Shown here piece by piece: positions 6,526 to 41,652 of a stretch of 64,000 nucleotides of DNA (within the stretch, counting starts at the first letter, position 1; the number at the start of each line of letters is the position of its first letter). Under the pieces are notes generated by a model. It made no database searches. It was not told where the DNA came from and saw only the letters and a list, made by a program, of their open reading frames with translations. The position numbers were made by a program, and so were the translations under genes. Origin of the DNA: Echinarachnius parma (lineage: Eukaryota > Echinodermata > Echinoidea > Clypeasteroida > Echinarachniidae); assembly GCA_037951105.1 (NCBI GenBank), contig JBAMJV010004365.1, forward strand, positions 1-64,000, in the 5' to 3' direction.

Positions 6526-9500
6526 ATGTTTCAGACAAGATCAGAATATGACAGGTCGGTGAAGCCTTCTTGGTTTTCATGTTTTAAAGAATAAATTTGC
6601 ATGGATGTTGGTTGTGTGCATGATTAACAAGTAAAAAATGTAATTAACATTTTTTATATCCAGTATAATGAGTATTGTTAGCAATGCTTTTATATAAATA
6701 CTTAGTATCACAATTCAACTGTAGCCTATGTGGTCCTCAACTGTCTTTAACAAAATAATGATAATGTCCTTCAACTTTCGAATGATAATGGAAGCCTGAA
6801 AGAAAAAGATTAGAACAATGGTAGCTATTAAAGGGGTAGTACAGTTTTGGTAAGGCTGAACTTTAGTAACCAAACCTGGACAGTAACATTATAAACTAAT
6901 AGTTATAACTCCACCATGCTCGAAAGGTATACAAAATTACAAACGACTAAGTAAAAAGCCCATTATCATTTAAAAAGAGCCATTAAAACACAAGAGGGCG
7001 CTCTCTAATAAGGCATTGGTTTCAACCATTTTTCATACAAAATTATGCATGTAATGTTTTGTTGAAATAATGATTAAATAGAGAGATCATCAACAACTAT
7101 TTAAAAAACGCTTTTGAAAATTGTTGAAAAAGTGTATGCATTTTTAAAATTTTTTGACAAATTAATCTAATTATTTGGGCCCCAAAATTGATTTTTAGAT
7201 GTTTTTTTTAGCAATGCAATAAAATACAGTCAAACCTGTCTTAATAGGCAACTTCTATAGCAGCCAAACTCCCTATAGTATAGTGGCCACCAAAAGTGAT
7301 CTACAGAAAAATAGCGTAATAAAACCTGTATAGACGTCAACTGTGGCCACTTTTCTTGCATCCCCTAGATCAGGGAAAAAATTAATCATTTATTTTTCGG
7401 GGGCTACTTTTTTAGCTTGCCTGCATGAAAATAACTCTAAAATTTGTTTTGCATTGAACTCTATGCAAATTTACAGGGGCTCTTTATGGCATTTCGGGGG
7501 CAAATTCGCCCCGAGGCCCCCGTGTATATTTTCACTGCCCTAGATGGTCTCTATACACCGGTTTTAACTAGACATCAATTGTTTATATTTTCCTTTTTCA
7601 TCTCATTATTTTTTTTAATTTTTGTTTTACACTTTTACAGGGGTGTGAATACATTCTCCCCAGAGGGAAGATTGTTCCAGGTGGAATATGCTATCGAGGC
7701 AATCAAGGTTGGTCTGAAATTGATTCAAAATATATATGTGTAGTCTTCTACTACGTAACAATAGCATGAAGCACATTACGTGTCACTTTGTATTATACAT
7801 GAAAATACTTAATTTCCATGCAAGAAATTGTTTCCTACTATGTAATTATTAGTGCTGAGTCAATGCATATATACGTTTAGCATTTCAGAAAATTTATGTA
7901 AAACAAAAAAAAAATTAAAAAACAACAGATTTTTAAAATTTTGTAATGTTTTATAACATTAAAATTGTTAGTGATATAAACGGAATAACTCAGCTTGCTG
8001 TTTGATCTTCTTGTGTTGATTATCACTCTTTCTTGCTTATGCAGTATGGGCATTTGTAAAATTAGGAAATATATCACAGGAGTCTGTCCTAGATAACTTA
8101 AAATGGATCTATGGCCATTGGTATCAGAACCAAGAGGGTTGGTGCTGGCCATGAGGGGGGGGGGGGGGGGGGGGGGGGGGGTCACATACCCACTTTTGGA
8201 CTTTTAAAATATAAACATAGGAATCAGATAATTCTCATTTAAATGTTTGTTCGCGTTTATATGAATTACATTGTGTGTTTTAATTTAATGTTTAGCACGT
8301 GCAATTCAGCTTGTTTGCTGCCATACATGTTCAAAATAAATACCATGAATGAATAAATAAATAAATAATTCTCTTTTAATCTCCTAATTATCATGACTGC
8401 AGCTTGGATCTACAGCCATTGGTATCAAAACCAACGAGGGTTTGGTGCTGGCCGTGGAGAAGAGAGTCACATCGCCGCTGATGGAAGCTTCGAGCATTGA
8501 GAAGATTGTGGAGGTTGATAGCCACATTGGTTGCGCCATGAGCGGCCTTATCGCAGACTCTAGGACCATGATCGACAGGGCAAGGGTGGAGGCTCAGGTA
8601 ATGAGATTTTCGTAAAATCAATGTCTATAGATATTGAGATAATCAGTATACAGTACCTGAAATATATTTTGAAAACAAATTTAAAAACTTAGTTGCGCCA
8701 AGAGCATTGAGAAGATTGTGGAGGTTGATAGCCACATTAGTTGCACCATGAGCGACCTTATTGCAGACTCTAGGACCATGATCGACAGGGCAAGGGTGGA
8801 GGCTCAGGTAATAGGAGATTTTATTCAAAATCAACATAGATAATGAGATCATTCAAACAGAGGGAGAACTGACCAGGGGGGTGTTTCACAAAGATCCTAA
8901 GTTGATCTTAACTCTAAGTTGGACTTAAAAAGTATGGAAAGCCATTAGTCCTAAGTGAAAAAAATTCTAAAAGTCCTTTTAAAAGGCATTAAATGTTGAT
9001 CCAAATCATTAATATTTTCTATTATCAAGGAAATTTCATGTGCTTGATGCAACAAATTTATGAAAAGTCTAACATTTTTCTTCTTTTTTAGTCTTTGAAT
9101 ATATTGTATTTCAAGGGTACAAATGGCTTTCCATAATAATTAGATCCAACTTAAGTTAAGTTCAACTTAGAATCTTTGTGAAACACCCCCAGGAATCTAT
9201 AATATAAATGAAAACGAGCAAAGAAAATCTTAATTGAAACCAAGACTTCTGGATTGATAGCGTTTCCGAGACAGACAACCATCGCAAGAGCTTTCTAGCT
9301 CAGTTGGTTGAGCACAAGACTAGCAATCTGGAGGACTCGGCTTTTATTTCCAGGGAAGCCCAATTTCTTTGCCTTTTTTTCATTTAGATAATCATAATGA
9401 GATAACTAGTATACCTAATCAATTTTGTAAAAGAGATTAAAAAAACGATGTAATAACAGACAAAAACATTCAAAACATATCTAGTACTATACAACAAAAT

Positions 9501-41652: not shown

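Follow-up and report, generated by a model that had tools for sequence, protein, structure and literature searches.

The window analysed here, a stretch of 64,000 nucleotides that forms the start of contig C4363 in the Echinarachnius parma assembly (1.2 Gb in 14,790 contigs), carries two genes on opposite strands. PSMA5 (proteasome subunit alpha type-5) lies on the plus strand at 6526..20440, with 8 coding exons (6526-6554, 7641-7707, 8403-8597, 10347-10454, 17454-17512, 18091-18193, 18991-19077, and 20363-20440) amounting to 241 codons plus a stop; the top PDB matches of exon 3 were PSMA5 chains, and the remaining exons and every splice site were assigned by eye. NAMPT lies on the minus strand at 30884..41652 and was located by tblastn, using a human NAMPT sequence as query, with splice sites again placed by eye; its 10 coding exons (41593-41652, 40617-40847, 39324-39452, 37878-38036, 37297-37427, 35883-36006, 33966-34070, 32323-32583, 31699-31821, and 30884-31003) give 480 codons plus a stop.

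Six of the 18 coding exons bear, in an adjacent intron, eight partial direct copies of themselves (two exons shorter than 60 nt lay outside the systematic scan). The preliminary description of this locus had named PSMA5 exons 3 and 6 and NAMPT exons 2, 5, 8, and 9 as duplicated in part, and self-alignment recovered all six. In PSMA5, plus strand, a copy of the 5' part of exon 3 is found at 8104-8153, ~300 bp upstream (88% over 52 columns, acceptor not kept), and a copy of its 3' part at 8702..8852, 210 bp downstream, the latter including the donor and ~45 nt of intron; the exon part of this second copy (8702-8807) is identical at 102/106 positions, and the whole copy at 89.7%. A run of 27 G residues occupies 8155-8181, in or just after the decayed 5' copy. 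Exon 6 is represented by decayed copies of its 3' end and following intron at 18302..18529 (exon part 18439-18467, d=274; further fragment at 18302).

All NAMPT copies are on the minus strand. An internal piece from the 5' side of exon 2 recurs at 40943-41027, 217 bp upstream (98%), where the exon's opening 37 nt and the acceptor are missing, and its flanks align no better than shuffles. The 3' part of the same exon is copied at 40165-40242, 467 bp downstream (88%); because a repeat insertion with a target-site duplication, recognised by eye, separates the copies, this downstream unit may originally have been near 165 bp. Moreover, a copy of the 3' part of exon 5 lies at 37162-37211 (90%, unit reaching 37085), a copy of the 5' part of exon 8, with its acceptor, at 32745-32797 (94%, 213 bp upstream, with a MITE-like insertion visible by eye in the intron between exon and copy), and the 3' part of exon 9, together with its donor and adjoining intron, recurs at 31411..31604, 185 bp downstream. 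In this last copy the exon part (31523-31604) is 85% alike and the intron part has 91 matches and 11 mismatches. As proposed earlier, 5' parts lie upstream and 3' parts downstream, which holds for 8/8 copies, the 5'-side copy of NAMPT exon 2 being an internal piece.

The preliminary description had treated duplication as a matter of exons; the six exons stand, but that picture was incomplete, as the window contains non-exon tandem duplications too, e.g., at 16777/16971, 41663/41878/42096, and 59973/60127. An unstranded non-exon array of 215-219 bp units in 2.6 copies, at 41663..42293, lies just upstream of NAMPT coding exon 1, and long C runs occur near 59973 and 60127. Other repeats of the window include an array of a 122-bp unit in PSMA5 intron 4 (12.6 copies, 11685-13224), a 1.4-kb direct duplication at 53-3207 (94% alike, start-to-start distance ~1.73 kb) accompanied by inverted partial copies, and arrays of ~22-24 bp units at 21735-22003, which by eye have opposite orientation and together form a long inverted repeat.

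Partial copies across conserved gene families

The exon sample was composed of chaperonin, proteasome, and Sec1 family exon matches with flanking DNA, plus the window exons, leaving out recognised second haplotigs and exons <60 nt; copies were sought within 600 bp on each side of an exon at a threshold of at least 40 bits, and 400 size-matched non-exon windows, taken from loci of at least 5 kb and from the window, served as controls. A direct partial copy was found for 38/91 exons and an inverted copy for 0/91 (p=5e-14), whereas control windows gave direct matches in 46/400 (p=2e-10 against the exons) and inverted matches in 36/400. These counts include one exon under two entries (L003 = L034), which makes the corrected figure 37/90; two further entries, L047 and L050, might represent alleles of a single exon, being 91-95% alike. 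The preliminary description had proposed the same scan over other conserved genes, and copies do extend beyond the window, to exons of several families. A high duplication rate is plausible, with about four in ten exons of this one-genome sample carrying a trace. Inverted or dispersed copying was ruled out by the lack of inverted copies among the 91 exons.

The geometry of the 40 exon-side events, 26 upstream and 14 downstream (p=0.08), supports the simple tandem duplication with one breakpoint inside the exon that had been suggested for the window. Indeed, the opposite end of the exon appears in 0/40 copies and in 36/40 events the copy ends no more than 26 nt from the edge expected for the exon match, the other four, all upstream, being internal pieces. 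The intron half of the unit, scored as z against 60 shuffles, was clear (z at least 5) in 14 of 38 testable events, weak (z 2-5) in 12, and absent in 12. In the youngest pairs (L008, L036, and L030) nearly the whole unit aligns, intron included, with exon 92/94 and intron 198/218 in L008, and exon 39/41 and intron 162/179 in L036. Such graded homology is what decay would give, though it would not amount to proof. When nine pairs were measured for homology at their junctions, the aligned track minus the unit was 11, 4, 2, 0, and -1 in five, the other four being partly decayed or multi-copy.

The exon part is at least 90% alike in 18/40 events, and in four of these 18 the intron half gave no alignment: NAMPT exon 2 and exon 8 upstream, L022:2528, and L047. 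Inspection by eye gives grounds for an indel or insertion in the two NAMPT cases; L022:2528 and L047 are unexplained.

Partial exon duplication of this kind has been described in intron gain by tandem genomic duplication (PMC2891723, PMC4974935), which, from the parts of these sources considered, appears to be the same kind of event; here, however, no new intron arises and the duplication spans an existing splice site. That the copies are remnants of intron gain, through tandem duplication of an exonic proto-splice site, is the least credible of the readings weighed, even if the model, as we read the relevant part of PMC2891723, would also predict exon-derived sequence at intron ends. The copies sit 87-526 bp from their source exon, inside long introns that they do not make up, and several carry the old splice site with adjoining intron sequence.

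A duplicated (mutually exclusive) exon was also rejected, as in no case was a whole exon copied with both splice sites. Gaps were present in 16/50 exon-copy rows, and the ungapped rows have 7 stops in 750 codons (a tally that left out NAMPT exons 8 and 9 and the duplicate L003); because of these gaps and stops the copies look non-coding. Copy and exon differ at 17.7% of third codon positions and at 8.6 and 6.6% of positions 1 and 2, respectively. An excess in this direction is expected, since the exon itself changes mainly at third positions, yet it seems somewhat above what a strictly neutral copy predicts. The copies were judged not to be under coding selection, in view of the gaps and stops, with this part of the excess left over. 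In addition, the preservation of some exon halves exceeds expectation, which is unexplained.

In this context, we regard as improbable, although less so than intron gain, that the copies are functional, either as alternative splice sites or as sequence that selection, or conversion by the exon, has preserved. The third-position excess would fit such a role, as would the better preservation of the exon half than of the intron half in several pairs, but exon-side constraint alone explains much of the latter difference, and the copies have stops, gaps, and truncation, none among the sampled exon-copy rows covering the whole tested exon match.

Exon visibility and unit length

The raw rates of copies at exons and control windows invite the reading that exons are truly targeted, with positioned nucleosomes, transcription, or GC content starting duplications there more often than in introns. 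The 18/40 events with an exon part at least 90% alike, and the difference in unit length between exon-linked and non-exon pairs (see below), also point that way. We nevertheless hold this to be doubtful, although less far-fetched than a function for the copies. When splice sites passing a score were compared with random points in the same loci by the intron half only, acceptors gave 6/66 and donors 6/71, against 36/500 and 23/500 for the respective random points, which is not significant (pooled, 12/137 vs 59/1000; p=0.19; odds ratio 1.5); at 90% identity or more the counts were 0/137 and 14/1000. The comparison is imprecise, and a modest real exon excess, two- to three-fold, would be compatible with it. 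Since intron-half-only scoring shows no significant splice-site excess, the exon excess is mostly one of visibility: exon-linked pairs look commoner because the exon side hardly changes, which keeps the pair identifiable when equally old intron sequence has already decayed.

Unit length was estimated after removing 24/93 clusters in which the unit had a further match elsewhere in the sampled sequence, which left exon-linked units with a median of 189.5 bp (n=32) and non-exon units with a median of 155 bp (n=37). Six more Pfam families added 19 exon-copy pairs by coordinates, with sequence inspected for HSP90 only; 12 of these fall at 181-217 bp and seven at 301-486 bp. In the pooled exon-linked set the median is 204 bp, 37/51 units lie within 140-231 bp, and 1/51 is shorter than 100 bp. 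The mode is 189 bp for exon-linked units (bootstrap 5-95%, 182-209) and 152 bp for non-exon units (70-160), and the two classes differ in length (medians 204 vs 155; p=1e-4 for 90-299 bp). The shorter non-exon units are not predicted by one nucleosome-sized process and have no explanation yet; older units can have been lengthened by later insertions.

The nucleosome repeat of sea urchins is quoted as 218 bp in gastrula and 240 bp in sperm in the part of PMC12961432 considered. The unit size found here is near such a repeat, in what is a loose match, as the mode is below 218 bp and the reference is sea urchin, not this species.

Haplotypes and assembly

The preliminary description had offered, besides a high duplication rate, an assembly that mixes haplotypes. 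This reading, under which haplotypes mixed at contig joins would yield false short duplications, is rejected, and we consider it very unlikely, only intron gain being more so. The assembly does contain unpurged haplotigs, and the likeness of some copies, 92-98%, comes close to that within certain haplotig pairs; but 28/40 copies are <92% alike, the recurrent unit is near 200 bp, and haplotigs at other loci carry duplications at the same places. The haplotigs C6105 and C8375 have in common a duplication with d=189 and another with d=160, each at the same exon on both. Two intronic duplications, in the intron adjoining exon 508-562, are common to C5775 and C6251, and in HSP90 duplications at two exons are present on both C1329 and C2377, one of them in unequal unit number (see below). 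Likewise, no second copy of PSMA5 exon 3 or NAMPT exon 2 elsewhere in the assembly was found among the matches listed, one of these searches having scored 40/285 candidates. Two more comparisons, C2571 with C3570 and, at exon 321-396, C5775 with C6251, showed 99.9-100% likeness and are uninformative on sharing.

Differences between haplotypes were also observed. A unit of 147-149 bp occurs twice on C8375 but once on C6105; the two copies are 92% alike, below the 96% seen over much of the C6105/C8375 alignment, so one haplotype may have lost a copy or the haplotypes may have undergone exchange. An exon copy with d=221-224 on C6251 was not found on C5775, whose intron there fails to align. In HSP90 the extra units that include exon sequence (~208-217 bp) number two on C1329 but one on C2377.

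Apparent unpurged haplotig pairs (C6105/C8375, C1329/C2377, C172/C4637, C11573/C6484, and others) are useful for polymorphism tests. On C2768, myosin-head exon matches at 27785-39190 recur with the same scores at 117946-128363, ~89-90 kb apart, as a recent duplication or an assembly error. The COX1 contig, C14600, is 19.7 kb long, perhaps with overlapping ends, and exceeds what we take to be the usual size of an echinoderm mitochondrial genome. In this mitochondrial COX1, TGA reads as Trp and there is one AAA codon, at what is presumably a conserved Asn, which fits the echinoderm code; the gene had no match in the plasmid collection and seems to resemble that of sea urchins.

Origin of the duplications and their meaning

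The partial exon copies are probably the visible part of a genome-wide, near-neutral, head-to-tail duplication of units of ~150-230 bp, with an exon-linked mode near 190 bp. Direct order, a preferred length, a spread over gene families, presence on both haplotypes, and differences between haplotypes are observed features of these copies. Added here to the preliminary description are the spread of copies over families, the argument from visibility, the differences seen between haplotypes, and a preferred length of the unit.

Under such a process, a unit with one end in an exon would leave the exon and its frame intact and add to the intron a truncated copy, of the 5' part upstream or of the 3' part downstream, that does not code and keeps no more than one splice site. 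With both ends inside the exon the frame would be broken, and the event would be expected to be lost. As the likeliest molecular step we would propose that each strand is nicked once, at sites spaced by about one nucleosome repeat, with fill-in of the overhangs and end joining; nicks in neighbouring linkers would make the unit one nucleosome repeat. Mis-processed Okazaki fragments would be an alternative of the same size.

Satellite monomers of nucleosomal length have units of ~150-200 bp. The unit size is similar here, but most of the duplications comprise two or three copies of a sequence that is otherwise unique, and they do not form families.

Tandem duplications in cells are described, in the parts of PMC8355091 and PMC5730883 considered, as arising from breaks with complementary protruding ends, where CST-Pol alpha-primase carries out the fill-in and NHEJ the joining, mostly at <100 bp. 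According to those parts, these events resemble the duplications in E. parma in being head-to-tail, sequence-independent, DNA-adding, and a common class of insertion; they differ in their mostly shorter length, as the exon-linked mode here is ~190 bp, and the mechanism here is proposed by analogy. Yeast Okazaki fragments are nucleosome-sized, with their length set by the nucleosome repeat (PMC6393292), and mis-processed flaps lead to duplications in human cells under FEN1 inhibition (PMC12633238); in the parts examined, neither source links these systems to a natural class of ~200-bp duplications. The same phenomenon was not found in the open-access literature searched, which is weak evidence of absence.

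A further possibility, which we put forward tentatively, is that the chief small germ-line structural mutation of this lineage is the duplication of one nucleosome repeat (~190-210 bp), with chromatin spacing setting the size and exons keeping a dated record. If unit length is tied to nucleosome spacing, chromatin would be linked to structural mutation. Gene prediction calls for caution, as introns of this genome commonly contain fragments that resemble exons and have donor or acceptor sites that look usable. Furthermore, because one copy is held fixed, exons let duplication be measured in any genome without population data. Finally, if about four in ten conserved exons carry such a trace, tandem duplication would contribute considerably to the growth of introns in this genome.
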